DNA from: Blumeriella jaapii
Lineage: Eukaryota > Ascomycota > Leotiomycetes > Helotiales > Drepanopezizaceae
DNA length: 64,000 nt
Reading direction: 5' to 3'
Assembly: GCA_009599575.1 (NCBI GenBank)
Contig: VWND01000034.1
Coordinates: forward strand, 62,001 to 126,000
The translations under genes were made by a program, and so were the position numbers. Under the pieces are notes generated by a model that was given only the letters and a program-made list of their open reading frames with translations, searched no databases and was not told where the DNA came from. Positions 1,128 to 49,959 of the stretch are shown here, piece by piece (position 1 is the stretch's first letter; each line of letters opens with the position of its first letter).

Positions 1128-2770
1128 ATTTTGGAAAGTCTCGTCAATTTTAAATATACCGAAAACGGCCAAATAAAAGCTTTTTTTTAAAACTAAAACC
1201 GATTTTTTTAAAATTAAATCACCGTCGCCGACGATAAGATTTTTTTAATCGACGTTTTATCGGGAAACGAATAGCCGGCTTTAGCTTCAGGATAAACGCT
1301 GAGCTATAACAAAACTTGGAAAATACTTAGCTAAAAGCATTTACGTCGCTAATCGAAATAGTACCGCGAATAAAATTAATTAATATTAATATTTTTGGTT
1401 ATTAACTCGGAAATAAAAGTTCCGAAGATTTCGTTTTCGTATTAAACAAACCCGATTTATATATTTTACTTTTTTATATTAATATTAGCATTTTTTATAA
1501 GCGCAAAGCTAATAAAATACGATTCGTAAATCTTAACGAATTCGGTGGAAATATTTTCGAAAAAATAAACGATTAGTTCGAAAAAAACGAAATAACAAAA
1601 TTATCCCAACTAATTACTGACGAGCTCGAAAAATTTATTACCGGCCGATTTTCCAGCTTATTATTTAACAGCCGATTTACAAAAAAACGATTTAATAATT
1701 TAGTAATCGGAATTTAATTTCTGCCAAAAAAAAAAAATCTTATACGAAATTTTACGCAACCGCGAAAAAGCTATAATTTTCGATTTTACCGAAATGGGCC
1801 AATTTAGCTTTAACGTTACGTTTTATATCGATATTAAAACCGTGCTTTACGAAACTTGGCAAGAAAAAACCTTTTCAGTTTCTAAAGCCTTTTAAAATAA
1901 ATTAGTCGAAATGCTAAAAAAACGAATTAAGCAAAAGATTTTCGAATTTTGCTACGGCCTATATAAAAACAAATAGTTTATCGTTGCGAAAAAAAAAACA
2001 TTTATAAATTTATTATCGTAATCGTCGAAATAAACAAAATAACGATACGAAACGCTAACGTGCTATTTAACGTCGATTAATTTTCGAACGAATTCGCAAA
2101 ACTGACGATCGTTTTTTTTTTCGATTTGTTTTCCGGCTACGACCATTTAATACTTGATTTACGATTTCGAAATATAACAGCAATTCAAATTTTAATCGGT
2201 TTACTGCGTATAACCAGAATATTTATAAAAGCTACGAATTTAATCGCTTAATTCGTAAAAGTCGTATATAAGGTTTTTATAATTTGCATTTTTGATATTG
2301 CCTTTTTTTACGTTAACGACGTCGAAGTAAAAAACTCCAGATTATATTATAATAATAAAAAGATTTTTTTTAAAATTCGACGTTATATAATAAAATATAT
2401 TTAAAATATCGATAAAATTATGGTTTGCTTCGAAAAAGCTAAAGCTATTATTAGCTTTCGATTAAAATTTTGCATATCCGAAATAAATATCGTTGGCTAT
2501 ATAATTAACAGCGCTGGCCGTTATTTTTAACGAAAGAAAATCAAAAAGATTTGCGAATAAAAAAAATATAAAAATATTACCGAAGCCAAAGCTTTTATTA
2601 GCGTTATAATTTATTATCGTAATTAAATTAAAAACTTTTTTTAGAAAGCTGCATTTACTTACGCTACGATAAAAAAAATTCGATTTCGTTTGAAGAAAAA
2701 AACAAAGCAAAATTATAAAAGTTTTTAAAACGACTTTTTATCGGCTTTATCGCTTATGCGGATCGATTAC
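1128..2770 (+). pseudogene. A1 PR-RT linker and reverse transcriptase (truncated by C1)
   Basis: From about 1790 the reading with stops ignored follows the fungal gypsy RT seen also in A2. Motif-like remnants include the K-R-I-K-Q-K-I-F-E-F block, F-S-G-Y-D in mutated form near 2120, and the LLRxT-like segment near 2205. Several frames are needed, so small indels are present besides C-to-T stops. RT would copy element RNA. The palm domain is interrupted downstream by C1, and the RNase H part resumes at 20284. Confidence 0.8.
1339..1371 (+). repeat. 33-bp palindromic unit, copy 1 (A1 PR-RT linker)
   Basis: Arms atttacgtcgct and agtaccgcgaat flank a 9-bp core, aatcgaaat. Two C-to-T or G-to-A changes separate the left arm from the common form ATTCGCG. 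It is at the same place as the A2 copy at 11085 and in the same reading phase, giving F-T-S-L...V-P-R-I. Confidence 0.85.
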
Positions 2771-2974
2771 TGTTGGTATCACAAAAGGTGGGGTGGTGTA
2801 TACACAGGGGTTGAGATATTGCAATAACTGGGGTTGTATTGCGAAAGAGATCTAAGGAGTAAACTAGCTATCGCACGGGTATGTGTAGGTAGGGCTGCAC
2901 GCTTGCAGCCTACCGTGGTCACGTGGGCTGATTATATGATTGTGCGCATGATCAGCCACCACCATATACCCATA
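2771..2974 (-). repeat. C1 3' LTR
   Basis: It begins TGTTGGTA on the plus strand and ends CCCATA, a mutated CCCACA. It matches the LTR at 20080-20283 with mostly C/T and G/A differences. It is much more GC-rich than the coding part of the element and contains a CACGTG box at 2920-2925. Confidence 0.93.
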
Positions 2975-3066
2975 CTAGCAACTCTTTTATAGAAATTAAC
3001 CATAGCTAGCTAGTCTTTTTTTAATTGTATATGTAATCGTCTTTTTTCCTACTGTCCTTTTTTTTC

Positions 3067-3700
3067 CTACTGTCTTTCTACCCAACCTTCTATTCTTACG
3101 TTAATTTCGTTTTTGTTAATAAAGGTGGTGAAAGCTTTATTAAGATTTGCTTTCGTTATAGCATCCGCCGGATTATCTTTTCCGTTAATCCATCTAACCT
3201 TTGATAACTTTCTTTTTTTATAACTCTGGCGGAAAGCTATAATATTAATTATAAAGCGTTTTTTTTTTTTTATTATTTTTAATTTGATCAAATATTTATA
3301 CAAAAAGTATAAATCAATGCAAATTATTACTGGAATATCGGGAAGATTAAGCTTTTAAATAATTATACGTAAAGTTATGGCGATGCAAATAGCGATATTT
3401 ACTCTAAAAACCATTCCGTATATTTCTGAAGCTAATACGCTTCGTATAACTTTCTGACATTTAGTTGAGCTTGCTGCAATTAGAGTTTTTTTTTATTTTA
3501 AATAAATTGTTAAGCTGCATTTTATTAGCTAAAAAAACCTCGTAGCCAATTTGCGAACTGCAGTCTTTGTTATTAGCAAATAAGCCATTAACAAATATAA
3601 ATAGCTTTGCAATAGCAAAATCGACTTATATAAATAAAAGTCCTCGATTTTAATTATTTATTATTTATCGAATTCGCTTATTAATTATATCGATATTTAA
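3067..3700 (-). pseudogene. C1 RNase H remnant
   Basis: The open stretch 3067-3303 carries the copia RNase H end signature W-I-N-G-K-D-N-P-A-D-A-I-T-K, followed by the usual C-terminal tail ending V-E-G-W-V. Upstream (to about 3700 on the minus strand) the domain continues only through stops. RNase H degrades the RNA of the RNA:DNA hybrid. Its place at the end of pol, after RT, agrees with copia order. Confidence 0.85.
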
Positions 3701-6560: not shown

Positions 6561-7469
6561 TGTATAAAAAGTTTAAATAAAGAAATTGTCGTTTTGATAT
6601 TTATTCCTATCGTAATAGCCGTTTTCGGCGTTTTATATGTTGTATTAATTAAAAAAAGAAAAAGGAGCGTTTTCCAATTTTTCAACGCTTTCGTATTGCG
6701 CAAAAAAGCTTGTGTATTATTGTATAGTCGAGGGAGCTCCAGTGAAATAAGCTTTATTAGCGTTGTATTCGTCGTATGCTTTTTTTACGTTTTTTTGGGA
6801 AATGTTTTGTTGATCAGCAGTTCATTTTTTTGCATACTTAACACTTTTTAGATTGGGAAAAACTGCTAAAACCGCCTGAATAGCCTTTTCGACCTCGGAA
6901 TCCTTCTTCTCCTCCTCTGAATAAGCCTCTGCCTTGGTAGCTTCTACCGAAACGTTTTTCGCGACTTCTGTCTTTGTAAGTTCGGTCTGTGTAATAGCTT
7001 TTATTTTAATTTGCAAAAGTTTGAAAAAACTAAAAGGTGACAGAAGTATAAAAAAGCTGAGGGGTGATAAAAGTCAATTTTCGCAATTGAATTTTTCGTT
7101 TAATGGTCCTAATTGCATTGCGTAGCTGGGATGCGACGCCTTTATACGTATTTGCAGGGTCCATTAGAACGTGTTTGCATTTTTGTACGCTATTGCAAGC
7201 GCTAATAACTTGATTTCGCAAATAATTATCGGTTTCGTATTTTTCGATAAAAACTTATTAATATAGCGCTAATTTTTCGAATATGGTTTTTAAGCATTTC
7301 AAGCGCGATTTGCCAGGGTTTTTAGTTTGTATTCCTTTGTATATAATTGTACGTTATACTGTCAGGTAAAGCTTGCGGTTTTTAGTCGTTTCGAAATAAA
7401 CTTTTATAAAATTAATTATTACGCTAAACTGATAGTTTTTACGAATTATAATATTATAATAATAAGCGT
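6561..7469 (-). pseudogene. C1 gag, C-terminal part
   Basis: Read on the minus strand, gag enters from the A2 junction at 7469 and continues through the open pieces 7030-7221 (M-D-P-A-N-T-Y-K-G-V-A-S-Q-L-R-N-A-I) and 6822-7016 (a Glu/Lys-rich tail). Gag would form the particle. The first part of the same gene lies at 18755-20079, on the other side of the A2 insertion. No zinc knuckle is recognisable. Confidence 0.75.
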
Positions 7470-7736
7470 TGTAAAACGGTGATACCTTGTATTAATAGGA
7501 ATTGGTAGTTTTAGCTATGGTCGAGGCATAGACCCCTCCGAAACCCTCTGCCACTGACTACCTTCAACAGATATAAGAGCAAAGCACCCCCTTAAATAGT
7601 ACCATAGGCACGCAGTCCAATTCATACCTTTACTTATCTTTCTTTTCCTTTCTTTAATCTTTTCTAGAAATTTCCTAAACTATTTTACTCACCGACATAT
7701 GGCCGCATCAATTTGGTTTTCCTATCTATTTTTACA
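7470..7736 (+). repeat. A2 5' LTR
   Basis: It starts TGTAAAACGGTGATACC and ends TTTTTACA, 267 bp. The same length is found at 18488-18754, 26265-26531 and 37201-37467. It has no CACGTG box, unlike the LTRs of families C, D, F and H. Confidence 0.93.
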
Positions 7737-7768
7737 TTTAATAATTTACGCAAAAAATCAAACTTCGG
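7737..7768 (+). promoter_or_regulatory. A2 primer-binding-site-like segment
   Basis: This stretch directly follows the 5' LTR. In the less mutated A3 copy (37468-37500) it reads tttgatgatttacgcaggg followed by attcaaatttcgg. That looks like the complement of a tRNA 3' end with its T-arm (GATTCAAAT-type). The exact tRNA is not identified, and the A2 copy is too mutated to pair well. Confidence 0.45.
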
Positions 7769-8440
7769 TATTTCGTTTTTATATATTCGCCGATGCATCT
7801 TTTAAATTCATAATCAAAATCGACTTCGATATTTCGCTATTACGGCTTAAAAAACCTTTTATATAATATTATTCGCAGCTATATTATATAAAAAACTTTT
7901 AATAGCTTCTTTTATCTTACGCACAATTATTAGACTACAAAAGTGCAACACATTTTAAAAACGTCTGAAATTACGGTCAGGCAATCCTGAACCGTGCGAA
8001 ATTCAAAGCTCGAAAATCGCTCCTTTATTTAAAAATAACAAATCGAATATTGGTTCGTACGCTTCGACCGCTACGCTCGGCCTTTCTAAACTAAATCTCT
8101 TTTAATCAAACGCCTGGCGAAAACTCAACCTCCTGATTTTACGCTTTATAATTATAGCAATTACAATTTGCGACTTTTTATTAAAAATAATAAAAAAATA
8201 GCTATACGTATATTAGCCTGAGCCACGGAATATCGAAACCGTAAATCATACAATAATATTATATCAATCCAATCAACTTACCAAAAAACAAATTTTTTAA
8301 TACGCTATTCAAATATCTAAACGCAATTTTATTTTATTCAATTCTTTTAAAAAACACAAAAACCTTTTTAATAATTCTCCTATTAAAAACGATTTTTTTT
8401 ATACTAAAAACCCTTAACTCGCAATTCCAAAAAACACTTA
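7769..8440 (+). other. A2 leader or gag N-terminal region
   Basis: This AT-rich stretch between the primer site and the recognisable gag core aligns with A3 37500-38180. Weak reading-frame signal is visible through several stops, so it may be the gag N-terminus. No motif is recognised, and no intact start codon can be chosen. Confidence 0.45.
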
Positions 8441-10523
8441 TTTATTTAATTCAAACCTTATTAACACTTTCGCTAATACTATAAACAACGACGCCCTTCG
8501 TTTTTTTATGCGAAGCCGTATACCCCTTCCTGACTCCCTTGGTGCATCCTCATTCAATAGCGCCAACGTTACCGACTTTATCGAAAAATATAAAAAAACT
8601 TATAAAAATTTCGAAATTTTTAAAACTAAAATATTCGATAAATTTTCTCGCTATTATAACCCAACCACCAAAAATATTATCAAATCGATAAATAAATGAA
8701 AAATTATTAAAGCTCGAAACTGGCGTAAGCTAATTAAAACCTTAAAATCGAAATTCCGAAACTACGATCGCTAGCAAATTCGCGATACTATCGCTTTTCT
8801 CAAACAGTTTGTTATAATAATTCGCTAAGCCAAAAAACTTAAAACCTATTATCGTATTTATACGAAAGTTTTTAACGTTTTCGTTAATAAAAAAGTCTTA
8901 AGCGAAATTAAATAAAAAAAATTACTTTTATTTAGCCTTCCAACTAATATTCGCAACAAAACTATTAAACATTTTAAAATTAATAAACAAAACCTTAAAA
9001 CCTTCGATTAGTATTCCAAATTTATAAAATTCGTTTTTAAACAAAACCAAAGCGAACGTACTATTAAAGCCATAAACTAAAAAAAATCTCCTTTCCTCAT
9101 CTACAAAAAAAACGTAGAAACTTTAGTACAAAAACATGCCCAGCCATTAAAAATTACCGAAATCGCTAAAAAACAACTAATTACTATATTATTCAATCGT
9201 TCTGCAAAACCTACAAGCTTAAAAAAGCTTAATAAAAATATCGAAACTTTCGTATTAAAATTTACCGATATTAAAATTCAAAAACTATAAAGCAAAATCG
9301 AAAATCTTATGCAATAACAAAAAAAATTCCCTTATATTAACTCGGATAATAAAAACGACCAAAATAACTTTTATAATAACTATTTCTTTTAAAATGCGCG
9401 AAGCGATTAGCCTCGCTAAATCACCGTAAAAATAATAGCTGCCCAATAGCAACCTTTTCGTACTAGCAATCAAAATCAACGAAACACTAATTATAATAAC
9501 GATTATTAAAAAAAAAAAAAAAACCAACGCGAAAACCAAAATCGCGGCTATCAAAATAATAAAAATAATTATTAAAACAAATCTCGTAGCCCTAAATATA
9601 AATTCTGTAATAACAAAAAAATTCATTGCGAAAAACCTTATATTCGCTTAAAATGCAAAGCGTTTAATTTTTATATAAACAATAATATTTATTATATTAA
9701 CAAATACGAAGCGATCTGCCTCGGACCAACGAAAGCAGAAATAAGCTTTTTTAACAAAGCTAAAAATCAAAACTAATTAAATATTATTTTCTTAAAAATA
9801 AAAAGCACGAAATAAAACGACTGCTTAAAAAACAGAAAAATGCAAAAACGATTTTCATTAATAAAAAAAAAAATATCCCAAAAAGCGTACTAATCAAAAA
9901 GAAAACCCTTATCCCGAGCGTAAATAAAATTTAAATATATAAATAAAAAACAAATATATATATTACTAATGCAATTATCGCATTTGCAAATATTATAGCT
10001 GCATAATTAAGCCAGCGAACCATAAAAAAGCAAAATGCTTTTGTTCCTTTCGCTAAACTAACAAGCGTAAAAAAAAACGTTAGAATCGAAAAAAAAAAAG
10101 ATTTTGAAATTCGAAAAAAAACCGATAAAATTATCAAAAAAACGCTTATAATAAAAAAAATTAACGACGATATAAAAAATATCGATACCGATATTCCGAT
10201 CCAAATTATTTAAAAAATACCAGCTTTTAAACGCTTACTATTAATACAAAGCGAAAAATAAATCGATAAATATATTAGCTCCGAAGCCGTCGACAAAACT
10301 ATTAAACGAATTATAAAACAAAAGATTAAATTAAAATTTAGCGATTTATTTAATATAAAAAAAAAATTCGACAAAATTATTAATAAACAAATCCTTGCGT
10401 TAAAAAAAAACGAAAAAGTTGAAATTATTCGAAAAAAAAACGATTTTAAATTAAAAAAAAACCAAAAAAAAATTTACAATACCGCAATTAATTTAGCCGA
10501 TAAAAAAAAATCCTCGGAAAAAG
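8441..10523 (+). pseudogene. A2 gag remnant
   Basis: The open stretch 8508-8699 reads F-N-S-A-N-V-T-D-F-I-E-K-Y, the usual start of the capsid-type gag domain in fungal gypsy elements, and the reading continues through stops to about 9760. The following 9760-10523 is Lys/Ile-rich and aligns with A1 1-785. The minus-strand open frame 9285-9626 is a shadow. Gag would form the particle; this copy carries many stops and is non-functional. Confidence 0.72.
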
Positions 10524-10878
10524 TCAGCTTTTTAATTCTCGTTATAAAAACCCAAAAGTCAAAATAACGAAACTGCCCCTATACGGCTATAAAAACCTTA
10601 AAAATAAAAATTATATTTAAAAAAAATACGACCGCTTTCGTTTTACTCGACAGTAAAGCCGAAATCAATTGCATAAATCAGAAAACAGCCGAAGCCAATA
10701 ATATCCCGATTATTATTAATAAGCGAATAATTTATATTATCGTTAATAAAAATACGATTAAATTTAATAAAATTATACGAAATATAAAAATCGACGTTAA
10801 AAATATTATTATTTATAAAAACTTTTTAATAATAAAAAAATGCTTCTACCCTATTATTTTTAAAATGCTTTGAATTTT
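10524..10878 (+). pseudogene. A2 retropepsin-like protease remnant
   Basis: It aligns with A1 786-1127. The active-site strand reads L-L-D-S-K-A-E-I-N-C-I: the Asp-Ser is kept, but the glycine has become lysine through G-to-A changes. This tells that the ancestral site was D-S-G-A. The copy has further stops and cannot act. Confidence 0.75.
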
Positions 10879-12507
10879 AAAAAGTTTCGTTAATTTTAAA
10901 TACACCAAAAACGGCCAAATAAAAGCTTTTTTTTAAAACTGAAACCGGTTTTTCCAAAGTCAAATTACCGTCGCCGGCGATAAAATTTTTTTAATCGACG
11001 TTTTATCGGAAAACGAATAGCCGGCTTTAGTTTCAAAACAAACGCTAAGTTATAACAAAACCTGAAAAATACTCGGCTAAAAGCATTCGCGTTACCAATC
11101 GAAATAGCATCGCGAATAAAATTAACTAATATTAATATTTTTAGCTATTAATTCGGAAATAAAAATTCCGAAAATTTCGTTTTCGTATTAAACAAACCCG
11201 ACCCATATATTTTATTTTTTTATATTAATATTAACACTTTGTATAAACGCAAAACTAATAAAATACGACCCGTAAATCTTAACGAATCCGATAGAAATAT
11301 TTTCGAAAAAATAAACGATTAATTCGAAAAAAATAAAACAACAAAACCATTTTAATTAATTATTAGCGAATTCGAAAAATTTATCACCGGCCGATTTTCC
11401 AGCTTATCACTTGGCAGCCGATTTATAAAAAAACGATTTGATAACCTAGCAATCGGAGCCTAATTTTTGCCAAAAAAAAAAAAAAATCTTATACGAAGTT
11501 TTACGCAACCGAAAAAAAGCTATAGCCTTCGATTTTACCGAAATAAGCCAATTCAACCTTAACGTTACGTTTTATATCGATATCAAAACTGTATTTCACA
11601 AAGCCTGGCAAAAAAAAACCTTTTTAATTCCCAAAGCCCTTTAGGATAAAATAATCGAAATGCTAAAAAAACGAATTAAGCAAAAAATCCTCGAATTCTG
11701 CTACGGCCTATATAAAAACAAATGGTTTATCGTTGCGAAAAAAAAAAAAGCATTTACAAATTTATTATCGCAATCATCGAAATAAACAAAATAATAATAC
11801 GAAACGCTAACGTATTATTTAACGTCGATTAATTTTCAAACGAATTCGCAAAATTAACGATCGCTTTCCTTTTCGACCTGTTTTCTGGCTACGATTATTT
11901 AATATTTAATTTACGATTTCGAAATATAATAGCAATTCAAATTTTAATCGGTTTGCTGCGTATAACCAAAATTTTTATAAAAGCTATTAATTTAATCGCT
12001 CAATTTGTAAAAATCGTATACAAAGTTTTTATAATTTGCATTTCTGATATTACTTTTTTTTACGTTAACGACGTTAAAATAAAAGATTCCAAATTATATT
12101 ATAATAATAAGAAAATTTTTTCTAAAATTCGACGCTATATAATAAAATATATTTAAAACATCGATAAAATTATAATTTGTTTCGAAAAAGCCAAAGCTAT
12201 TATTGGCCCTCGATTAAAATTCTGTATATCCGAAATAAATATCGTTAGCTATATAACTAACAGCGCTGGCCGCCACTCCTAACGAAAGAAAATTGAAAAA
12301 ATATGCGAATAAAAAAAATATAAAAATATTACCGAAGCCAAAGCTTTTATTAGCGTTGTGATTTATTACCGCAATTAAATTAAAAACTTTTTTTAAAAAG
12401 CTGCATTTATTTACGCTACGATAAAAAAAAAATCGATTTCGTTTAAAAAAAAAAGCAAAGCAAAGCTATAAAAATTTTTAAAAACAATTTTTTATCGGCC
12501 CTATCGC
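10879..12507 (+). pseudogene. A2 PR-RT linker and reverse transcriptase
   Basis: After the palindromic unit the linker runs to about 11500. RT follows, with remnants of F-Y-I-D-I-K-T-V, K-R-I-K-Q-K-I-L-E-F, N-K-W-F-I-V-A-K-K, a mutated F-S-G-Y-D, the segment L-R-I-T-K-I in the open stretch 11953-12156, and F-Y-V-N-D-V where the family has the catalytic D-D (now N-D by G-to-A change). The region ends at C-G-S-I/R-I-D-Y, exactly where A1 was broken by C1. Confidence 0.83.
11085..11117 (+). repeat. 33-bp palindromic unit, copy 2 (A2 PR-RT linker)
   Basis: Left arm attcgcgttacc, core aatcgaaat, right arm agcatcgcgaat. It occupies the same site as copy 1 in A1 and is read in the same phase, F-A-L-P...A-S-R-I. 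Confidence 0.88.
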
Positions 12508-12990
12508 TTATGCGGATCGATTACAATCCAGACGCAGAAAAAATTATTTTAATTATCGACGCTAATATTTTCGGTTAAAAAGCTGTATTGCAACAAATCG
12601 ATAAAAACAAAAAACGGCATTTTTTACGATTCGAAAGCGGCTTATAATCCTTCGCGAAAGCACGCTACGATGCTACCAAACGAAAATATCGAAGCGCTTT
12701 TAAAATAATAAAAAAAATAAAAAGCGAATTATACGACGTATATTTTATTTTAAAAACGAACGTAAAAGTTTTTGTCGATCAATTAAATAATAAAACTAAT
12801 AACCTACCAAAAGCGCTTATTATCAATTGAATAGCTTAAGTGCGATTTATAAACTTCGAAATTAAGTATATTAAAAAAACAATTAATACAACGGCAAACG
12901 GCCTTTCCAAACGAAAACGCTTTTATCCGTCTGACTTCGCTAAATAAAACGAACAAAATATCGACGAATAAATCGCTGACGAAATCGGCT
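12508..12990 (+). pseudogene. A2 RNase H remnant
   Basis: Read through its stops it gives I-I-D-A-N, Q-Q-I-D-K-N-K-K-R-H, F-E-S-G-L, A-R-Y-D-A-T-K-R, and near 12893 T-A-N-G-L-S-K-R. These are the order and spacing of gypsy RNase H, ending in the A-D-G-L-S-R motif with D changed to N. Tandem palindromic units follow immediately in the linker to integrase. Confidence 0.8.
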
Positions 12991-13030
12991 GCTTCGTTAT
13001 TTACGTTCTGGATTTCATAAAGCCAAAACT

Positions 13031-13063
13031 ATTCGCGTTGCTATTTCGGCTGGCACCGCGAAT
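13031..13063 (+). repeat. 33-bp palindromic unit, copy 3 (A2 RNase H-integrase linker, first)
   Basis: Left arm attcgcgttgct, core atttcggct, right arm ggcaccgcgaat. This is one of the best preserved copies. It is read F-A-L-L-F-R-L-A-P-R-M in the frame of the flanking pol. A second unit starts exactly 63 bp downstream. Confidence 0.92.
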
Positions 13064-13093
13064 GAAAAACATTAATTCTCGGGCCGAAAAAAC

Positions 13094-13126
13094 ATTCGCG
13101 TCACCATTTCGGCTAACACCGCGAAT
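13094..13126 (+). repeat. 33-bp palindromic unit, copy 4 (A2 RNase H-integrase linker, second)
   Basis: Left arm attcgcgtcacc, core atttcggct, right arm aacaccgcgaat. It has the same core as copy 3, separated by 30 bp, and is read F-A-S-P-F-R-L-T-P-R-I in the same phase. Confidence 0.92.
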
Positions 13127-14674
13127 AGATTTGACCGAAAATAATCGGAATAAGCCGACTAACGGCAAAAAAAATTTTTTAATCGATAATTACGAAACCG
13201 AAAACTTTTATTTAATCGTATATTACTTAGCCATTTTATTTAAATTATTTAGCGTATTAAATTATTAGTTTAAATTATTTAAAAACCAAGCTTTCGATTA
13301 TATTTTAGCCGATAAAAAGCTGTATAAAATAAAAAACAATATATACCGAAAACGCCTAGTAATAAATAATAAAGCTGATAAGTTTTAAATTATAAAAAAA
13401 GCCTACGAAAAAGTGTTTTATAAAAAAGTTAAAACCATTTATTACCGAATTAAAAACGATTTTTAATAAAAAAAATGCTTCGAAAATTGCAAAACCTTCG
13501 TTAAAAGCTATATTTTTGTTAAAAACGAAAGCCTGGCCGAAAAAAAAATTTATTATATCCGACGTAGTTTTTTAAAATTTAAAAAAAAATCAATTTCGAC
13601 GTTATACGCGTACCGATCACCGACCGCGAATATACGTGCTTTGTATTCGTTATTAACGATTTGTTTAAATAGCTTGAAAAGCGACTTTTTCGAAACGCTA
13701 TTTTCGATATTATAACGATTTTTTTTTAAAAAAACGTAATATATCGACACGGTTTGTTTAGCAAATTAAACGTCGATAATAAATCCGAAAATAAAAGCGT
13801 TATCGAAATTTTTATAAAAAAATACGATATTTAGCGTATTTAAATCTTAGTTTATAATTCGAAAAGCAACGAATCCGTTAAACGAAAATATAAAAATATT
13901 TTCGACGGCCTTTTAAAAGTTATTCGAAAAAGTTATAAGCGTTGATCGCGGAAATTCTCGGAAATGCTTTTTATTATACGCATATATAAATACGCTTTTA
14001 TTAAAATAATTTTATTTTTTATTTAATACGGCAAAAACGCTCGACTGCCTCTAAAAACAAAATGGCCTGTATAAAAGCTTTATAACGTAATTAAAATAAA
14101 AACGAAAGCAAACCTGTTAGCAATAAAATTTAAATAGCTAAATTACCGCGATATAAATATAAAAAAAATAATTTTAAAAAAAAAAAAATATAAAAAAGCA
14201 GCTAAAAAAATTTAAAATAAAACCAAAGTTTTAAAAAAAACGCTAATTAAAAAAAAAAATTTGGTTTTAGTTTACGACGTTCAGCGCGTTATTAACAAAT
14301 CGGCCGATATTAAACTTAATTATAAATGGCTCGAATTCTACGAAATATGCGAGGCCGAATTAAATAAAAGCTATTATAAACTTACGGAATTCGATAAAAC
14401 AAAACTAAAAAAAACGTTCGCCGCCAACCGGTTAAAACGATTTTACAAAAAAAACCAACAAATTTATTTTTTAGATTTTGATTTAAACAGCGATTCCGAC
14501 TTCAGCGATTCCGACGACGATTCCGACCAAAGCGATTATATTTCTGAAAAAGAAAAATCTTTTGGAAAAGTCTGGAAACAACCGAACGATAATTTCGTTA
14601 TTAAAAGCATAATTCAAATCGTAATTCCATTTATAACCGAAAAAAAGAAAAGTGCTTACAAAATTGTTTATTAA

Positions 14675-15105
14675 TTATTCTACTGTTTTTTTTTTTATTA
14701 TTTTCCTTTTTATTGCATATTATTTTATTATTTTTGTTTTGCTTTGCTTATATACAACCTAATTATTTTGTTTATTTTTAAGACTTTTTTTTATATTATT
14801 TAAAACATCTACTATACTTTTCTTTGTTTGACTGTACTTTTGTTTATCAAAATAAAAGCTTTGTATATATTTAAGCCGTATATCTAATATATTTATATCG
14901 CTCGCATATTTTACGAAAATTATTTTTTATACATTTTATTATTTGTTACTTTTTGCACTGTTTACTTTTTTCGTTGTTCTGAACGAATGCTTACCTGAAC
15001 AATTATAATTTATTAAAAAAACAGCATGCGGATTCTCGTGACTTTTGGATACAAATACCTTATAATCCCCGTACTTTTTTCAATTATTTTTCAATAAATA
15101 TAACA
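14675..15105 (+). other. A2 spacer between integrase and 3' coding region
   Basis: This very AT-rich stretch starts at the integrase stop and aligns with A1 22437-22880. No frame is favoured. It could hold a promoter, internal ribosome entry or intron for the downstream region, but no signal is readable. Confidence 0.5.
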
Positions 15106-18100
15106 CATTTTTTTAATTAATAAACCTATCGATATTATATCGTTTCTTAAGCAAAGCGTTGCTAAATCTGGCAAGCTTATTTTTAATTTACTTTGGAACG
15201 AAATTATTATACGCAATTTCTTCGAATTTAAACAAATATACAATACCGTTATTTTAAATTAACAAACAGCTTTCGTAAAAATATTTATAAAGCAATTCGA
15301 TATAATAATTAAAAACGTTAACGAATTTTTATTCGATTACGAAAGCTTCGTTAAAGCTGAATTCGTTCGCAAAAGCTTTAATTACGATAAATTTTTGCTA
15401 AATTACGACAACGCCTTAAAAGCTTTCGCCGGAGCAAAAAGCTCGAAATAACAAAAAAAAAATAACAGACCGAATATTACGCTTTTTGCCAAATCAACGA
15501 AAAAAAAATATTCAAAAATACGTTTTTAGCAAAATTACCGGTATTATTTTATTTCGGCATTTCGCTCGCTTTTTCGAAACTATTATTTTTATTAAAAAAA
15601 AAGTTTAAATACTAAACGCTTATATTTTTAAAACGCAAGCTCTGAAAGCTAATAATCTAAAAGCTCGCAAATTCACAAGTCTTTTTATAATTGTTTGCAA
15701 ATTAATCGACGACGCTATACAATCGTTAAAAAAAGTTCTAATTAGCTGCGAAATCCTAAGTTTAACTTTTTTTTAAAACAAAAAACTAAGCGTCGCTAAA
15801 TGCGGCATTTTTATACCGAACGAAAAAAACGACGCCATTCCGACGCTTTAAATTTACGACGATAAAAAAAACGAAAAAGCTAATATTATTTTCGTTTAAT
15901 TCGAAAAAACATACGCGGTAGCAACCAACATTTTCAAAACAGCTAAAATAACTCAGCGACTTTTATTTTTAATTATCGAAAACGAATTCGAGGACGAAAT
16001 CAAAAGCGTAATAATAAACAACCGCTTATTCGAATATAAAAAATCTATTATATTTATAAAAACGATTTCGGAAAAAATAAAAATAAAAAACGTAAAAAAG
16101 CGCGCCGACATTTTCGAAATCTTTTTTATTCGAAAAAAAAAACTATTCGCGTTGCTAGCAAAAAAGGCACCGCGAATAAAAACAGCCGGAAATCGACGCC
16201 GAGCTATAAGCTTTAAGCTAATTAATAAAAAACGCGACGATTTTACAAAATTAAATTTAAAAAATCTTAGCATTTCGAAAATAAAAAATCCAAACGATCC
16301 TGAATTTGACTTTTCGAAACTAAATACGCAAATATTAAAAACGCTTATTATTTTCAAAAACGTCGTAACATAACCGCCAGTATTTTAAACTTTAATAAAA
16401 GCATTTAAAATCTCGATTATTGCACGATTCGACCGAAAAAGCTTAAAAAAAAATATCGAAATTATCGCGAAAAAAATTATATAAAAAGCATAAAATTAAA
16501 TTACTTTGCTTAAAACTTTCGCTTTCGACGACAAAACGATCCAAAAGTTTTACTTCGATACTTTTATATAAAAACCAAGTAAATTCGTTAGCTTTTTTTT
16601 TTTGCTTCGAACGAAAATTAAATCAAACTTTTTTCGGAAAATTGCAAATATAATACGCCGAAACAAATAAAAAAAACTTTTAAAAACGGTAATCCGTTTT
16701 TATTCGAGCTTTTTTTCGTTAAAAAACTTCGATTTTTTAATTTCGTTTTTACGAATAACGTCAACGCTAAAAAAAACGGTAAATTCTGCTATTTTTACGT
16801 ACGCTATTACGCGGCGTATTACGATTTAATTATAAAAAAAATCGACGTTATCGATTTCGCTAATCGATTCGCTGTTATTAAAAATTCGGATTACGACGTA
16901 TTCGAAATTAATTTTAATAATTAATTTATATTTCGACGAAAAACTGCGAGAATTATTTAAGCACGTGCTAAAGCTTATTTAGGCTACGCAAACTTTAAAA
17001 CAAATCCTAAAGTTTTTAGCGCGACCATAAAACTCGACTAAAATATAAAAAAATAAAAGCAATAAATATTTCCAAAAGCCGATTTTTCTGGCTTTTCGAC
17101 CGAAAGTGTATTTTAAAATTTATTTGAATTAAGCTGCGAATTCGTTAATTACGTAAAGTTTTATAACGAAGAAAACAAGCCACTATTACATTTTATAAAA
17201 AAAAAATAACTATATATAAGCACCATTTCCGACTAATTAAAACCCAAAAAGCGCCTACAACTTTTTTCGCTAATATGCTTTACAATTTTATTTAATAAGC
17301 TTTTAAAATGCATCCCGGCTTTTACTTCGCTGCTTTAATTACTCGGAACCCTGGAAACTGCCGCCTCGTAGTATATCCTGACGTTTCGATCGCCCTAAGT
17401 TTCGCTGATCCCGATCGTATTACGATTACAAAATTCGATATCGCCGATTTTTAAAAAAAAAAAAAAATTGAAAACTTTACCGACGCCATTTTCGACTATT
17501 ACGTTCTGCCTGCATTCGCATATAACTCGGAAATAATCGAAGCTTATCTGCAATTACATTATAACGTTAAGCTAACTAAAACCATCCAAAAAAGCCTAGC
17601 TTTTTCGTATTTCAGCGCGTTTAAAACAGTGGCCTCGGCTATTTTATCGGATTACGAAACCGAAAGCTACGAAATAAAAAATAAAATAACCCTTATCAAC
17701 TTTTCGATTAAATAAAAAGTTTTCGTCAGATTTAAAACCCAAAAAACCGACGGCGTAATACTAGTTTATTCGAACAATTATACGACGCAAAAATACAAAA
17801 ACTATTTCGAAAACGACAATCCGATAAGTAATTTGATATTATTTATATTACGGCGAAAACAATCACAGCATTTTCGGTAGTTTCGATTGCAAACGACTAT
17901 TTTCGAACTATTCCGTGGAATAGTTTTTCTTATAAGCTTCGAAGCTTTTTTAAAAACATTCGTCGGTAAATAACCGTAATCCGACCTATTAGTTTGCGCG
18001 AAGTAAAAGCGTTAATCGGTTTTTATTACGACGAATTAATCGATTACTTTTACGATTTTAATACAAAACTTTTCAGCGCTTTCTATAAAACGTAGAATTA

Positions 18101-18440: not shown

Positions 18441-18487
18441 TTTTTAGTCGTAATTAAAAACGATTACGTATATTATTTAAAACAAAA

Positions 18488-27705: not shown

Positions 27706-27710
27706 GCTTT

Positions 27711-33278: not shown

Positions 33279-33318
<40 letters not shown>

Positions 33319-33330: not shown

Positions 33331-33617
33331 GGCTTTTTTTTTTGTAAAAAAATATAATAAAGCTCGTGGCTATTTAATTATATATTTTACGCTTTTTAAT
33401 TTTATTATGAACAACCGAATATAATCGCTTACTTTTTTTTTGATTATTAATTTCGGAAATTATAATATAGTTTTAAAAAACGCTTGGCTGGCCGAATATT
33501 AAGTTTTATTAAATTGTAATAAACGCAAGTTTTATTGGCCGAAGTTTTATTTTTTTATAGTTTTTTACGTTCGTTATATTTAAGTTTTTTATTTGTATTT
33601 TCGAAAAATTTAATTTC

Positions 33618-33919
33618 TGTTGCGCTATATTTACATTCCTTTATTTCCTTTCATTTCGTTTGTTCCAGATTTATTCTTTCTGTACGCTTTCAGTAGTTAG
33701 ATGTTCCTGAAGCTCGGAAAGGCTCGTAGTCACGTGATAACGAGCCTTCTCGAAGACTAGTTTTTCCGAGCGACTGACTAAGCGAGCCCGAACCTTCCGT
33801 TTTTTGCGAAAAGCTCGCCAGTCAGATTTAAAATAATACAAGTAATATTTTATTGTATACAATTTATTCGTCCCAGCTTTCGGTGAAGGTTTTTACCGAT
33901 TATTTAGTTATATACGACA
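33618..33919 (+). repeat. F2 5' LTR
   Basis: 302 bp, TGTTGCGC...ACGACA, the inverse of F1. It is followed by GTTATAAGCCTCGGAGCC, which may be the primer-binding site. A CACGTG box is at 33731-33736. The minus-strand open frame 33671-33862 encodes the same 63-residue peptide type as F1 and is just LTR. Confidence 0.88.
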
Positions 33920-39825: not shown

Positions 39826-40011
39826 TGTTAAGGGGTGCGAACGAGCAGAAGGTTCGTAAATGATTTGTATTAATTACGAGATTTTTAAATTAAAAGTGCC
39901 GCGAATTCTAAGATATAATATATGCGGATAATCACGTGGTTCCGATATCACGTGACAACAACGTAACTCTCGAATCACGTGACCAATGAACTGATGTCCT
40001 ATCCTTTCACA
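39826..40011 (-). repeat. D1 3' LTR
   Basis: 186 bp, TGTTAAGGGG...CTTTCACA on the plus strand, paired with 52049-52234. Confidence 0.93.
39933..39981. promoter_or_regulatory. Three CACGTG boxes in D1 3' LTR
   Basis: CACGTG at 39933-39938, 39949-39954 and 39976-39981, the last two as TCACGTGA. All three are also present in the 5' LTR (52156-52204). Tight clustering suggests binding by a bHLH-type regulator, by inference. Confidence 0.4.
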
Positions 40012-44121: not shown

Positions 44122-45614
44122 TTTATTTTTTAAAAATTTTTAATAATAATAATTATTAAAAACAATTAGTTTCCCGACTTTTTTGCCTCGGCCTTAGCTT
44201 TTTTAATTTAAAAAAAGTCGGAATAATCAGCAACGCGGTGTTTATCGCTAGCATATCAAAAGCAAAAGTTATTAGCAAAAAGGTAAATTCGGCGAGCTAA
44301 TTTTTCGACATTATTTATTAAGCGTTTGTTTTTGACTATATCGGCTGCGGTTTATATAATTACTTTGGTTTAAATAGCGCTGAAATTCATAAGGTCGTTT
44401 TAAATAATAGTCGTAATAGCAGTTTTAAATATAAAAGCAAAAAAAATAATTCTCGTATTACGGCTTTCGGTTTTGTAATAATTAAAATTTAATTATCGAA
44501 AAACGATATCGGTTTCGCGTATTTAAGCGCAAAAAATTATAAAATCGGTTTTTAAATCGAAAAAATTAATATACGACAAACGAATAATTATATCAAAATA
44601 AAAAGCTTCGCGCAGAATAGCGATAGCGGCTTCGTTATTAAACTTAATATAATTTTTAATTTTCAGTCAAATAAAAAAAAATAAACAGAAATTAAATGCT
44701 TTACTTAAAAAATAATTTTTTTTTGAATATATCTGCCTATTGATTAAAAATACCGAACGATTATTAAAAAATTTAAATTATTTTTGCAATAGTCAAATAA
44801 GAAAAAGTGCCGTTTATACGTAAATTTTTTTGTAAAACGCTTTTGATTATATCGGAAAAACGAAAGAAAAAGTAATTTATACGATTTTATTCGGTCGCAT
44901 ATCAATTCTGATTAAAACGAAATTTTAAAATTATATTTAAAAAAAAAATGGTAAAATGCTTCGTAACGTTGCCGGTGTTACCCGAATTTATAAATTTATC
45001 GGGGTCGAAGAAAACAAATGTTTTTTTTTTTGCGTTTAAAATATTCGATGTATTTTAATTAATAAAAATTTGTTTTCGGAGATTCGCAAATTCGGCTTCG
45101 CGGTTTTAAATCATTTTTTTTTAAAAAGCCTTTTTTTTCTAGTATTATACCGTTTAAATATTTGATTTTTAAGCGAGATTATTTAATTTGGCTTTAAATA
45201 ATATTATTATATCGCTTTGTTTTATCGCGTAAGCGAAAATATCGAAAAAATTTTAAAAGCAAGCTTTCGTATTAGCGATTAAAGCGGCGACGATTTAATC
45301 GGAGTATTTAAAAAGCCTTAAAATAAAGCAATTAAAAGGTTCCGATAATTTAAGAAATTCCGATATTTTCGGTATTAATGCCCGTTAAAAAAAAGCGTGA
45401 AATATGTTTTGTTCCGGAATATAAGCAGAAGCAAAACAAGGTTTTTCGAATATAAGTTTTATATTAAAAAAAGTTGTCGTTTCGTAGTTTCGTATAAAAG
45501 GTCGTAAGGGTCGTAAAATTGTTATCGCGATAAAATTGATTTTTTGTATGCGCAAAAGCAAAACAGAATTAGCAGGCCTTTTCAGCTCGAGGGCTGAAAT
45601 AGAAGTGTTAAAAG
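44122..45614 (-). pseudogene. D1 gag
   Basis: It aligns with the reverse complement of D2 61174-62690. Close to 44230-44300 the frame gives N-F-C-F-x-Y-A-S-D-K-H-R-V-A-D-Y. The better D2 copy shows it to be a C-x2-C-x4-H-x4-C zinc knuckle with both outer cysteines hit. The first codons lie near 45560-45600, next to the E2 insertion. Confidence 0.75.
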
Positions 45615-45619
45615 GGTTT

Positions 45620-45888
45620 TGTAACGATCTAATCAGTCGGAGGGCTGGGAAATCAGTCAACTGGTCGCCGTGTTTATATAATATGAAAAACGAGCCTTTG
45701 GTTTTGTAACAAAAATATTAATTTAGAATTAACAATTGCAAAAAATAGAAATTGCTAAAAAAAAAAAGTTTTATATATATAAATAATTTTTACAATTAAT
45801 AAAAAAATTCACCAGGAGATTAAAAAGCTTGCAGCTACACGTAGTTGCTGGGGTGATACGAGAAATAGCAAAAAAATAAATCGTTATA
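45620..45888 (-). repeat. E2 3' LTR
   Basis: 269 bp, TGTAACGATC...ATCGTTATA on the plus strand. It is more mutated than the partner at 51764-52032 in the middle part. Confidence 0.93.
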
Positions 45889-46430
45889 TTATTCCTCCGT
45901 CCGAAAAAAGCGCGTTTTCGAGCTTTTATTTATTGGTACGTCGCTATTTAAATAATCGTACGAATTTGTACCTTCGGAATACGCTTTCAGCCAGTTTATA
46001 AGTTTTGCAGAAAAACCGAAAAGCTTTTTATGCGTTAAATAAAAATCGCGCATTTTCAAAAAAGCATAAATAAAATCAAACGCGAAGTATTACGTGAGAT
46101 TTTTATTTAAGCTTATTCAAAAAGCTTTATACTAAAAGGTTTTTCGCTGCATTCGACAAGCGAATAATTTTTCGACTTCGTATTCGAGCTTTTTAATTAT
46201 ATTAATAAATTAAAAAGCTAGGTTAACCTGATTTAAAAACGCGTCGTTAGCTATTTTACGCAATCGATTAGCGTAAAAAACTAAATGTACGTTTATAATA
46301 CTAAAAAGGTTTAGCTTAAAAGCGTTATCGAAAATTTTGGCTATAATTTTAAAAAGGCCGTTTATAAGATTGTCGAGTTTGCGAAAGGGCCGGAAAGTCG
46401 AAAATAAACGCATATCGAATTATACGTAAT
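45889..46430 (-). pseudogene. E2 integrase C-terminus and chromodomain
   Basis: It is collinear with E1 29891-30435. The open stretch 46210-46413 gives R-K-L-D-N-L-I-N-G-L-F-K and F-Y-A-N-R-L-R-K. The chromodomain part (about 45990-46190) is legible only with help from E1 because of stops. Confidence 0.75.
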
Positions 46431-47480
46431 CGCTAACGTTAAAATCGATCGCGCGGCGAGATTTATTCGCATTTTTTTTTATTTTGTCGTAAGCTTATTA
46501 AAAATGCGATTTAGCGAAGTTTCAAACGTCGTAATAACGGCGAGCGTACGCACGAGCTTCGTTTGCGTTTAGTTTATATAAAAAATTGAAATAAAAAAAA
46601 TTATCGAGCTTTCAGTTTCAATTGGTATAAGAAATATAATCGTATACAATTTCAAAAAGTGAAAAGCCATCTAGACTTTCGTAAAAAAAGACTATTTAAG
46701 CGAAATCTATTATTAAAAAAAATTCGCTTTAATCGTTTTAATAAAAGTTTACGAAAGGTCGAAAGCGTTTTTGCAGATATTAATTGTAAATTTCGGTCTG
46801 ATCGTCGGTTTTAAAATAAACGGCTATCGAAAGCTTTAATTGCGTATCGAATATTTTATTTAATTCAGACCAAAAAATAAATTAATACTAAAGGCTACGA
46901 TCGCTAATAATACTTTTTGAAAAGTTAAAAAACTTATATACGTGGAATATATACAATTTGGCAAAGCTTCGAACGTCGATATTTTTGTAACAAAAAATTA
47001 AAATAATTTGCTTAAAAAAGCGATTTATTATTACGAACACGTTATCAAAATCGTATTTATTTTTGTTAAAATTGCAAAAGTTTATTATAAGATGCTTTTA
47101 AAAATAATTAAAAACAGGAAAAAGCTGAAAAAAGCCGAAGCGTTTATTTTTTAAAACAAAACTCTTTCGATAAACCTAGCAATTGCGATAATATTATTTT
47201 ACGAAAACTGTTATATTTCGCTAATAATATTAATCCGAAAGCAATTACGTAGTTTTGCGAGCGCTGGAATAAGCGGTAAAAATCTGGTCGTGCATTTTTT
47301 GTACAAAAGCCAAACGAAAATAATCGACGTCTAATATTATTAAGCGACCGTAATATAGCAGCAAATCGCGTTTAAATATATACGAAATATTATTATAATC
47401 GTTTTTTTTCGTAGCGTTTCGTATAGCTTTTTTTCGAAAAGCTATCAGGCTGCTAGCTGTGCGATTAGCGTGAAAAATTT
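46431..47480 (-). pseudogene. E2 integrase
   Basis: It is collinear with E1 28741-29890. Zinc-binding and core regions are present by alignment, with numerous TAA/TAG codons. No intact D-D-E triad can be shown. Confidence 0.72.
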
Positions 47481-48100
47481 AATTAACGATACGAAGTGCG
47501 GAAAAAAAATTAGCTATTTTAACGATAAAAACAATTATTTCGGAAACCGTAAAAAATCGAAGTTTTTTAGTTAAAAAGCGGTAATTAATTTGATTTGCTC
47601 GGAAAAGAATTTGCAGACGCTAAATGCGTTTAAGAAAGTTTTGGCGGTCGAATTCGTTTATACGACGTATTAATGCGTTAGCCAAAAAGTTGTGTTTATT
47701 TGATTTGTACGTAATAAAAAAATTGTAATCGGCGAAAAGCTCGGTTTAGCGTGTTTATCGAGCGTTTAAAAATTTGAAAATTATAAAATATTTTAAAATT
47801 TTATAATTAATAATTATTTTTATTTAATAAACCGAGCCAGCTAGTTTAATACGAAAATTGCTTAAAAATTTTACGATTGCGAGCATTTTTTTATTATATA
47901 CGACGTAGTTTAGCTTTGCGAAAGCTATAGTTTTGCTAAAATAAACGATTGAAAGCTAATCGTTATTATGGAATTGCGAAAGCATAAAAGCTACTACGCC
48001 GTCGGAAGCGTCAGTTTCTAATATATAAGAAAAATCTTGCTTATAATATTATAAAACTGATGCTATAATAAAAGCTAATGTAAAAAGGTCGAAACTTTTC
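47481..48100 (-). pseudogene. E2 RNase H
   Basis: Aligned with E1 about 28120-28740. The minus strand shows S-D-G-V-V-A-F-M-L-S-type sequence near 47990 (family T-D-A-S-D-G-V-V-A-G-V-L-S). Inactive through stops. Confidence 0.72.
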
Positions 48101-49019
48101 TAATATTTAAAAATAAAATTGTAAACGTTAGCTTTGGTTAAATAAATCAAAAGTTTTGCAATTATATCGTAGTTTCGAATAAAACGTCGGTAAAAGTTAC
48201 AAAAACCAAAAAAGTTTTATATACTTTTTATAATAGTAAAAAGCTTTTAATAAGCGATTACGGAAATCTTTTTTCAATTTATTTTTAAGCTTTTAATCGA
48301 AATAATAAAACTTAGATAGCGGATCCGAATAACGTTAAATTTAGATTTTCGAATATCGGCTTATAATTCAGCGTCAGCGAGCTTTTGAAGCATTTTACGA
48401 ACGTATATAACGTATTTTAAAAAATCGGACGAATAAATAATAATATCGTTCAGATATATAATAAAAAAATCGTTTAAATAATCGAAAAAAACGTCGTTTA
48501 TATAGCGTTGATAAATTACGGATTTATTAATAAAGCCAAAAAGTAGCATTTTACATTTATAAACGCCGTAACGCGTACGAAACGTCGTTAGTTCTTTATT
48601 AACGGAAAATACTCGAATTTTATAAAAAGTTTAACAAATATCGAATTTCGTAAAAATTCGCGCTTTCGAAAAACGAACAAAAGTTTTATCGATAAAAAAA
48701 AAGAATAGCGATTTTTACGAATAATATTATTAAAAGCTCGATAATCGATATAAAAACGCAGTAAACCGTCGGGTTTTTTAGCGAAAAGCATTGGAACAAC
48801 GAAAAAAGCGGTAGAAAGTTCGATAAAACTTTTGTCAAAATTATTTTGCAGATAGATTTTAATAATTTCGAGCTTTGAAATCGATATTTTATATAAAAAA
48901 ATGTATTTTAGCTTTTGTTCATTTATAATAAACTCGATTTTATAATCGTAGAACCGGTGAAAAGCTAGCTTATTATTAGCGGCTTTAAAAAACACGTGTT
49001 CGAGGTTTTTGTATTCCGA
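48101..49019 (-). pseudogene. E2 reverse transcriptase
   Basis: The open stretch 48588-48995 covers F-F-K-A-A-N-N-K-L-A to K-K-P-D-G-L-L-R-F-Y-I-D-Y-R and K-N-R-Y, then slips frame at an A/T run near 48690. The next piece (48361-48549) holds Y-Q-R-Y-I-N-D-V-F-F-D and the catalytic box as Y-L-N-D instead of Y-L-D-D, a G-to-A loss. Confidence 0.88.
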
Positions 49020-49959
49020 GAAAAAAAATTCGAAAAAAAATTTATTCGAAATTAGTTTTGCTAAGCTGATTAAAAAGGTCGAAATCGATATTTCGTTGGT
49101 TTTGAAACGTTCGAAAAAATTATAAAATTAAATCTTAAGAAAAGTGTTGTACGTAAAATCGTTTAATATTTTATCGATTTCGTATAAAAAAGTTGAAAAC
49201 ATTTTAATTGTTTTTTTTCTGAAAATCAGCTTAAAAGCGTGTGTAATAATTTGGCAAATGAAAATTGAATAAATAATAAATTAAAAGATTCGTTTTCGAA
49301 CTGGTCGTTTAAGAAATTCAAAAAATGGCTTGTTTGAATTATCGATTATATTAAACTAAAAGGCTATCGCGGCGAAAGCTTTTTTTCGGTTTTTGGTATA
49401 ACTGTTTTTCGTAAAACGAAAAAGCTGTTTTAACGAAAAAAAAAAAAAAAAAAAAAAAAAACAATAAAAAAAGAATCGGCAGTCTGGAAAAATAGTATAA
49501 TTTTTTGTATTATTTTATTAGCGTCGCTATCGAAGTTAGCACCGCGAATAAAATTCGACTTTTTCACGCTTCGCATAACGTCGTAGATCTGCTATAATTA
49601 ATTAAAGTTTTTGTTACGTTTTACAGCGTCGTTTTAATAGCGAAATTAAATTTTTCGGAAATGCAAATAAAAAATTTTAATATAACGAATATAAAAAGTT
49701 GTGAAAAAATAAGATTTCGGTTAATAAAGTTTGCGTTTATTATAGTTTAATAAAATTTAATATTCGGCTAACCAAGCTTTTTTTAAAATTATATTATAAT
49801 TTCCGAGATTAATAATTAAAAAAAAAGTAAACGATTATATTCGGTTATTAATAATAAGATTGAAAAGCGTAAAATATATAATTAAATAGCCACGAGTTTT
49901 ATTATACTTTTTTATAAGAAAAAAAGCCGGGAAAAGTTAAATCAAAGGTTTAAAAAAAA
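49020..49959 (-). other. E2 PR-RT spacer
   Basis: It holds a 26-base A-tract (49436-49461) and the ninth palindromic unit (49517-49549). The reading frame is uncertain. In E1 the same spacer is where A1 inserted, 16 bp from the place of the palindromic unit. Confidence 0.6.
49517..49549 (-). repeat. 33-bp palindromic unit, copy 9 (E2 PR-RT spacer)
   Basis: Plus strand: left arm attagcgtcgct, core atcgaagtt, right arm agcaccgcgaat. Same length and arms as in family A, but in an unrelated element and in the inverse orientation relative to the pol gene. This shows that the unit is not simply a conserved piece of family A. Confidence 0.88.

Follow-up and report, generated by a model that had tools for sequence, protein, structure and literature searches.

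A 33-bp near-palindrome shared at the nucleotide level by two decayed retrotransposon families of Blumeriella jaapii

How does the same short near-palindrome come to lie within the reading frames of two different retrotransposon families? In the 64-kb window (the whole stretch of DNA that was analysed), an earlier note had listed nine copies of a 33-bp unit, and nine out of nine are found where it placed them, each 33 bp long. They are copies of only five sites, and are therefore not independent of one another. Four sites belong to family A and lie on the forward strand: A1 (1339-1371, in a partial family A copy, and 11085-11117, downstream of a protease frame), A2a (13031-13063 and, in a second A copy, 20796-20828), A2b (13094-13126, 63 bp past A2a and with an identical core, and 20859-20891 in the second copy), and A3 (16145-16177, within a 3′ open frame at 15900-16373, and 23920-23952 in the second copy). 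The fifth site belongs to family E, on the reverse strand, where a single unit (49517-49549) occupies the interval between a protease remnant and the reverse transcriptase (RT). Both 7-bp arms are exact in seven of the nine units, the exceptions being the unit at 1339, with two mismatches, and the unit at 49517, with one.

The two families appear decayed by C-to-T mutation of a RIP-like kind and have no alignment of 150 bp or more with each other in self-BLAST. The A copy with the A1 unit at 11085 spans 7394-18754 on the forward strand (~11.4 kb, with terminal repeats near 7394-7747 and 18431-18754), and the E repeat region, consisting of protease remnant, unit, and RT, spans 45611-52032 on the reverse strand; all of these limits are approximate ones from self-BLAST. 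Both families are candidate Ty3/Gypsy elements. Matches of A to Retrotransposon peptidase (E-value 0.0021) and Aspartyl protease (E-value 0.0016) fell below their cut-offs, and E gave weak matches to a Ty3 Gag-Pol chain (E-value 0.03) and an RT/RNase H chain (E-value 0.012), with no Pfam RT match. A Pfam search of ten pieces returned nothing at 0.001, Rfam and tRNA scans were both empty, and protein searches with the A3, A2, and E frames found no match at their limits in a collection without fungal relatives. The remaining domain names of A and E are putative and come in part from the map of an earlier reader.

Genome-wide, the unit is abundant in its exact form. The earlier note had proposed counting the pattern ATTCGCG-N19-CGCGAAT against expectation, and 1083 exact sites are present in the 47.4-Mb genome, against none for the reversed control. 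Other arm spacings are nearly empty, with six sites at spacings of 0-18 (reversed control 1) and five at 20-49 (reversed control 2), and by eye four of the six and one of the five are units whose core has gained or lost bases. With three mismatches tolerated, there was no excess over chance in the window alone (11 matches against 8.3 expected, with at least 11 in 20 of 100 shuffles), and the signal resides in the exact form and the genome-wide count, not in a lenient search of the window. Elsewhere, a scan of the genome_contigs collection found only seven loci with the unit pattern, and a scan of the viral_contigs collection found none. Units of the E version, with E cores, occur without mismatch in at least 100 places; allowing up to three mismatches gives 423 + 403 = 826 places, which is only an upper bound for E because A3 units also fit the E pattern (eight of nine A3 copies fall within three mismatches of it, as does one of 14 A2a copies).

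The reading frames differ between the families. At A2a (FALLFRLAPRM, in what is an RNase H-integrase linker by the earlier reader's map only), A2b (FASPFRLTPRI), and A3 (FALLAKKAPRI, and FASLAKKTPRI in the second copy), the unit is read in phase 1 as F-A-x-x...PRI within a frame that is open on both sides, and a natural open frame of 138 aa encloses an A2 unit. The claim that all A units share one codon phase thus stands for these three sites, and downstream for A1; upstream of A1, no one frame stood out in the three copies long enough to be read. The majority codons TTC GCG ... GCA CCG CGA are identical, down to their silent bases, at each of the four A sites, and the core residues differ. 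The unit in E is inverted relative to the coding strand, as had been claimed, and is additionally read in another frame, phase 0, as IRGANFDSDAN and not F-A-x-x...PRI. This phase is carried by natural open frames: one of 336 aa in one E copy passes through the unit into the RT, and another copy has one of 150 aa that crosses the unit from the protease side. In the window copy, a single tblastn match spans the protease through the unit in phase 0. Phase 0 also has the fewest alignment columns with a stop in any of 54 copies (14 upstream and 9 downstream, vs. 16 and 16, and 25 and 17, in the other phases). Fixed stops separate the phases weakly (0 and 0 in phase 0, vs. 1 and 0, and 2 and 1), and raw upstream stop means in unaligned copies (4.54 in phase 0, 3.69 in phase 1) do not settle the frame. 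Within the unit, phases 0 and 1 have no stops except for a mean of 0.07 at A2a, and phase 2 has a mean of at least 1.0. The data support a unit that reading frames on either strand tolerate. The E unit is read antisense and in a different frame, which no conserved peptide could account for; what the families share is therefore DNA or RNA. The different frame of E strengthens the case for sharing of the 33-bp near-palindrome at the nucleotide level, which is supported, and suggests that the unit spread at the level of DNA and not of a protein motif.

Comparison of the five sites shows which parts of the unit are constant. Purine/pyrimidine class agrees in 236 of 240 comparisons across the arms (random background 0.50). 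Low variation within the unit is partly built in, as the copies compared here and in the stop counts all had a unit score of at least 19/24, a selection that omits heavily decayed units. Agreement is 62/90 in the 9-bp cores and 68/120 in the left 12-bp flanks, little above the background. The terminal inverted arms are 12-13 bp long with one or more mismatches, and an arm asymmetry, T8/C26, is common to all five sites. Between A2a and A2b, the unit agrees at 33 of 33 positions and the flanks at 7/12 and 8/12. The right flanks agree in 88/120 comparisons, no lower than the cores, and the right-hand limit of the unit is therefore soft, which takes weight from a copied module and adds it to a duplication. 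We had anticipated a sharp end to the homology at both edges of the unit, and the right edge deviates from this. The alignment of some flank pairs exceeded that of random draws (z up to 2.05 on the left and 2.32 on the right), but the left flank of E resembles the A left flanks no more than random draws do. In one copy, four of four A sites have AAAA at -6 to -3; 7 of 200,000 random sets equalled this, the offset having been chosen post hoc. Target duplications had been suggested as a sign of insertion, and no consistent one was seen at the five sites, where A-tracts adjoin most A units. Predicted RNA folding is modest (z from -1.2 to -3.1, with three of the five sites no better than -1.4), and the outer four base pairs of the hairpin do not form in the E unit.

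Searches for a third carrier were restricted to cores that do not start with A or that have a purine at core position 3. They returned 2, 0, 3, and 19 places, two of the three repeating the first two. Ten distinct places were assigned by their flanks: the first two are A2b, the third of the three is E, and seven of the 19 are A3 (five), E (one), and A2b (one); for the remaining 12, the core alone decided the assignment. Every place that these searches returned was assigned to A or E, units with A- or E-like cores elsewhere falling outside their design. The proposed check for host-gene insertions likewise yielded A or E copies only: the same searches, in which a part of the 1083 places was read, showed no unit in intergenic DNA or in a cellular gene. 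Filled sites had also been proposed for comparison with empty ones, and within this genome none of the three sites covered (E, A1, A3) yielded an empty one. For E, the count was zero with a pattern whose flank parts matched 52 of 54 filled copies, and the unit was present in 30 of 30 loci fetched from 40 scored flank matches. The A1 search gave ten rows, representing eight places, all with the right arm present, and the A3 search gave two matches, both filled once aligned; the right part of the pattern matched seven of eight A1 copies and nine of nine A3 copies, and the left part was AAAA alone. The idea of a small mobile or copy-spread palindrome is supported insofar as two families share the unit at the nucleotide level; spread as a mobile element through the genome at large is not supported by these searches.

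The reading that we favour, at just short of an even chance, is a hairpin module of ~33 bp, resembling the palindromes of Rickettsia, that entered two LTR-retrotransposon families at five places by copying and was then multiplied by them. Such a module would have two arms of 12-13 bp that pair except at one conserved mismatch and enclose a free loop of 7-9 bp, and its copying into five places would have preceded the multiplication of the families and their C-to-T decay. From a master copy in which it was established, each unit would have been multiplied passively by retrotransposition, and its survival in coding DNA may be due to a length of eleven codons and to two of the three phases being open (A sense, E antisense). 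The most likely occasion for the first copying would be reverse transcription, when synthesis would have switched template at the hairpin from one co-packaged RNA to another; such a switch could also have set the palindrome in one orientation or the other. As for the A-tracts next to the A units, insertion may have favoured them, or the module may be slightly longer and include them. This reading is favoured by arms and an asymmetry that are the same at five sites where cores and flanks are much less alike, and by the fixed length, both orientations, and two reading frames. Against it are the lack of demonstrated movement, of empty sites at E, A1, and A3, and of a carrier outside A and E, as well as the soft right limit and the modest folding; constant arms with drifting cores would also fit a binding site. 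More doubtful, although still credible, is that the unit is a free-standing 33-bp selfish palindrome of the nucleus, parasitising retrotransposons and jumping between co-replicating elements at reverse transcription. If so, it would be a parasite of parasites in well over a thousand copies, with no gene of its own, riding in coding sequence with two phases open in the orientations seen.

The main rival to the copied module is a putative functional inverted-repeat site, whose arms would be recognised at a fixed spacing by a dimeric DNA- or RNA-binding protein, such as a host factor, the element's nucleocapsid, or a recombinase-like protein; we rate it as unlikely but a serious contender. Constant half-sites, fixed spacing, and a free core are the pattern that such a site would be predicted to leave, and occurrence in both orientations and in the sampled copies, with no empty ones at three sites, is consistent with it. 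Nevertheless, four sites in the body of A, two of them 63 bp apart, would be unusual, the orientation asymmetry that is kept would be needless for a symmetric site, the reading frame alone would also demand a fixed 33 bp, and no such protein is known. Improbable, on our assessment, is an internal duplication of a stretch of A by reverse-transcription errors, followed by capture of a piece by E through recombination, with the palindromy incidental. The identical, nearly tandem A2a and A2b point this way, as do the weak likeness of some A-site flanks (z up to 2.32), the right flanks (88/120), and the A-tracts common to A sites, but repeated events with nearly the same limits and divergent cores are not expected at random, and the left flank of E is unlike those of A.

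Two further explanations fare worse. Conservation of a peptide, such as one cut by the protease between domains of the polyprotein, would account for F-A-x-x-xxx-A/T-P-R-I at the A sites, which are in linkers by the earlier reader's map. We consider it very improbable: the peptide is not the same at each site, the reading is rejected for E (opposite strand, phase 0, IRGANFDSDAN), and at the four A sites it is the silent bases that are constant while core residues vary. Chance, or the composition of decayed AT-rich DNA, would agree with the window-only search at three mismatches, but has a negligible probability and is ruled out by the 1083 exact sites against none reversed and six plus five at other spacings; the seven loci in genome_contigs and none in viral_contigs also argue against it.

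In-frame palindromes spread as DNA are already known from Rickettsia and organelles. For Rickettsia palindromic elements (RPEs), a criterion is empty orthologous sites in relatives; within this genome, no empty site was seen for the unit at E, A1, or A3. Like the unit, RPEs are not known to have a mobilising enzyme. MITEs are short and non-autonomous with terminal inverted arms, and the unit is like them in these respects (arms of 12-13 bp), but it is shorter, with no target duplication shown and no relation to a transposase. Bacterial MITEs are treated in one of the sources on RPEs (PMC2229807). In the passages cited here, RPEs are palindromic, lie in frame in unrelated coding sequences whose proteins tolerate them, and form stem-loops (PMC2229807, PMC6649704). 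The parallel with them drawn in the earlier note holds for a palindrome in frame in unrelated reading frames (sense in phase 1 at A2a, A2b, and A3; antisense in phase 0 at E), but not for length (33 bp against the 105-146 bp given in PMC2229807), nor for location, since RPEs are described in cellular genes and intergenic DNA and the unit was found only in A and E by the core-excluding searches, in retrotransposons of a eukaryotic nuclear genome. The palindromic insert blocks of Magnusiomyces capitatus mitochondria are also short palindromes in fungal protein genes, but as described in the cited sections they disrupt frames and are skipped by the ribosome (PMC5009743, PMC6649704), whereas our unit is nuclear, eleven codons long, with two phases open, and in natural open frames (336 aa in E, 138 aa in A2). 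Fusarium mitochondrial palindromes, arranged from A and T runs according to the cited passage (PMC7218506), and the GC clusters of yeast mitochondria (PMC4478555) are likewise small, dispersed, fungal, and argued to be mobile, but are organellar. PARCELs, in the part of the source cited, are coding repeats with dyad symmetry, as is the unit, and are linked to mobile elements in some taxa (PMC2996958), but they are tandem repeats of 25 residues defined by protein, and the unit is shared as DNA with different peptides in A and E. Searches of one literature collection found no report of an in-frame palindrome in a nuclear genome or in retrotransposon coding sequence, which is no proof of absence. 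If the unit did spread at reverse transcription, it would offer a concrete, testable example both of a minimal selfish repeat without any enzyme of its own and of the origin of new linker peptides from DNA in either orientation. The new finding here concerns the E unit, which is not only inverted but read in a different frame.

All nine units lie where the earlier note placed them and each is 33 bp long. They represent five sites, four in family A and one in family E, both decayed LTR-retrotransposon families: A1 (1339 and 11085), A2a (13031 and 20796), A2b (13094 and 20859), and A3 (16145 and 23920) in A, and a single site at 49517 in E. One copy of A, at ~7394–18754, measures 11.4 kb between terminal repeats. 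In the window alone, a three-mismatch search gave 11 matches against 8.3 expected, which is not above chance. The genome to which the window belongs (47.4 Mb, 91 contigs; window at G000:C34:62001-126000) has 1083 exact ATTCGCG-N19-CGCGAAT sites against 0 for the reversed control, and it is this exact form, not the window count, that is decisive for the reality of the unit. Other arm spacings in the same genome gave 6 sites at 0–18 (control 1) and 5 at 20–49 (control 2), and by eye 4/6 and 1/5 of these, respectively, are units with a core indel. Scanning for a degenerate version of the unit turned up seven loci in genome_contigs and none in viral_contigs. Chance as the origin of the unit is excluded.

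Self-BLAST aligned no stretch of 150 bp or more between A and E. The E unit is a slightly different version of its own. At least 100 places, among the matches listed, fit the E pattern exactly; the 826 places found with three mismatches include A3 units and are only an upper bound for E, because 8 of the 9 A3 copies examined also fit that pattern. The E unit was present in 30/30 fetched loci, drawn from 40 scored flank matches.

A codon phase common to all units had been suggested, and this holds for A2a, A2b, A3, and the downstream side of A1, and fails for E. At A2a, phase 1 has no fixed stop columns upstream (10 copies) or downstream (11 copies), against 4–7 in the other phases, and A2b lies 63 bp beyond in the same frame. 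At A3, phase 1 has one fixed stop upstream (9 copies) and one downstream (3 copies), the other phases have 1–2 and 6–8, and natural open frames of 148–174 aa cross the unit. Downstream of A1 (8 copies), phase 1 has no fixed stops and the other phases 9 and 3, while upstream (3 copies) the counts of 5, 7, and 4 favor no phase. The E unit is indeed inverted, as described earlier, its phase-0 frame running on the strand opposite to the A orientation of the unit. Across 54 aligned E copies, fixed stop columns (upstream/downstream) number 0/0 in phase 0, 1/0 in phase 1, and 2/1 in phase 2, and columns with a stop in any copy 14/9, 16/16, and 25/17; unaligned raw counts separate the phases less clearly, with an upstream mean of 4.54 in phase 0 and 3.69 in phase 1. 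Natural open frames run through the E unit into RT in one genomic E copy (L035, 336 aa) and from the protease side in another (L033, 150 aa), and one tblastn match of the copy in the window extends from protease across the unit in phase 0. With A read in sense and E in antisense, stops inside the unit are absent from phases 0 and 1, except for a mean of 0.07 at A2a in phase 1, and average at least 1.0 in phase 2. One DNA unit thus yields two peptides, FALLAKKAPRI at A3 and IRGANFDSDAN at E, and a peptide motif fails as an explanation for E, where strand, phase, and peptide all differ.

For the anatomy of the unit, we compared classified copies (A1 8, A2a 14, A2b 12, A3 9, E 54), leaving out units scoring below 19/24 and copies without 40 bases on either side, and merging identical blocks. 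To keep C-to-T decay from counting as difference, majority letters were coded as purine or pyrimidine; they agreed across the five sites at 236/240 comparisons in the arms, 62/90 in the core, 68/120 in the left 12 bp, and 88/120 in the right 12 bp, with a background of 0.50 in random A and E stretches. Agreement in the arms far exceeds that anywhere else; in the left flank it is close to background, and in the right flank it is much the same as in the core. T at position 8 stands opposite C at 26 at 5/5 sites, so that orientation is readable and the sites are related rather than five separate palindromes. A2a and A2b are alike at 33/33 unit positions and at 7/12 and 8/12 flank positions. In gapped comparisons of 14-base flanks, some pairs are weakly alike (z up to 2.05 left and 2.32 right), and the E left flank shows no likeness to A flanks. 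All 4/4 A sites of the 7394–18754 copy carry AAAA at −6 to −3, an offset picked post hoc and matched by 7/200,000 random sets. Within sites, units differ by 143 transitions and 2 transversions, as expected from RIP-like decay; window dinucleotide ratios are 1.06 for TA/AT and 0.72 for (CA+TG)/(AC+GT), and this decay, together with the retrotransposons, suggests a fungal genome. Coding-strand RNA folding z-scores (A1 −1.35, A2a −2.58, A2b −1.23, A3 −3.05, E −1.30) indicate modest hairpins in the decayed copies, and DNA parameters give a similar picture.

A genome search for signs of mobility found no empty E sites. For A1 the search gave 10 rows from 8 places, each of which retains the right arm, and two candidate empty A3 sites proved filled once aligned. 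Among units with cores other than the A and E types, searches found no third carrier and no independent copy outside A and E, with flanks read for both places of one search, the third place of another, and 7 of the 19 places of a further one. With neither an empty site at E, A1, or A3 nor a third carrier, both families probably already carried the unit when they began to multiply.

What remains is a DNA- or RNA-level entity, either a copied module or a kept site. We lean, tentatively, toward a module that was copied. Three features favor this: A2a and A2b stand nearly in tandem and have one and the same core, the arm asymmetry is preserved, and E carries the unit inverted and in another phase. 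Constant arms flanking free cores, and the absence of any other carrier, would instead suit a site retained for a putative binder, a less probable reading that ranks behind copying, although both may be true at once. Internal duplication within A followed by capture by E comes last and appears unlikely. As for known systems, Rickettsia palindromic elements (PMC2229807, PMC6649704) behave likewise but differ in length and occur in cellular genes, where our unit, as far as searched, does not; for these two reasons we do not class it with them. Fungal parallels are mitochondrial (PMC7218506, PMC5009743), and our literature searches found no report of a nuclear case of such a palindrome.

Several further features were also observed. 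In A, ~3.7 kb with open frames (14700–18400) separates the putative integrase-like end from the 3′ terminal repeat; the frames at 15900–16373 and 16622–16924 matched no known Pfam family, and a protein search with 15900–16370 found no relative. In one genomic A3 copy (L001, G000:C1:246293-249325), likeness to other A copies ends upstream of the unit, and the sequence past the break looks undecayed by eye. At 26380–26760, an A copy's 3′ terminal repeat adjoins E sequence ~15 bp from the expected E-unit position, E homology beginning at 26531 (equivalent to 49501). At breaks of the E copy in that part of the window lie two copies of a 303-bp repeat (27404–27706 and 33617–33919), inverted relative to each other and 90% identical. 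Another repeat, of ~186 bp, occurs at 39826–40011, 52049–52234, and 60989–61160 (79–89% identical), two of the three copies containing a CACGTGA inverted repeat. The segment 19780–20136, between two A copies, stays open for 118 codons and is less AT-rich.
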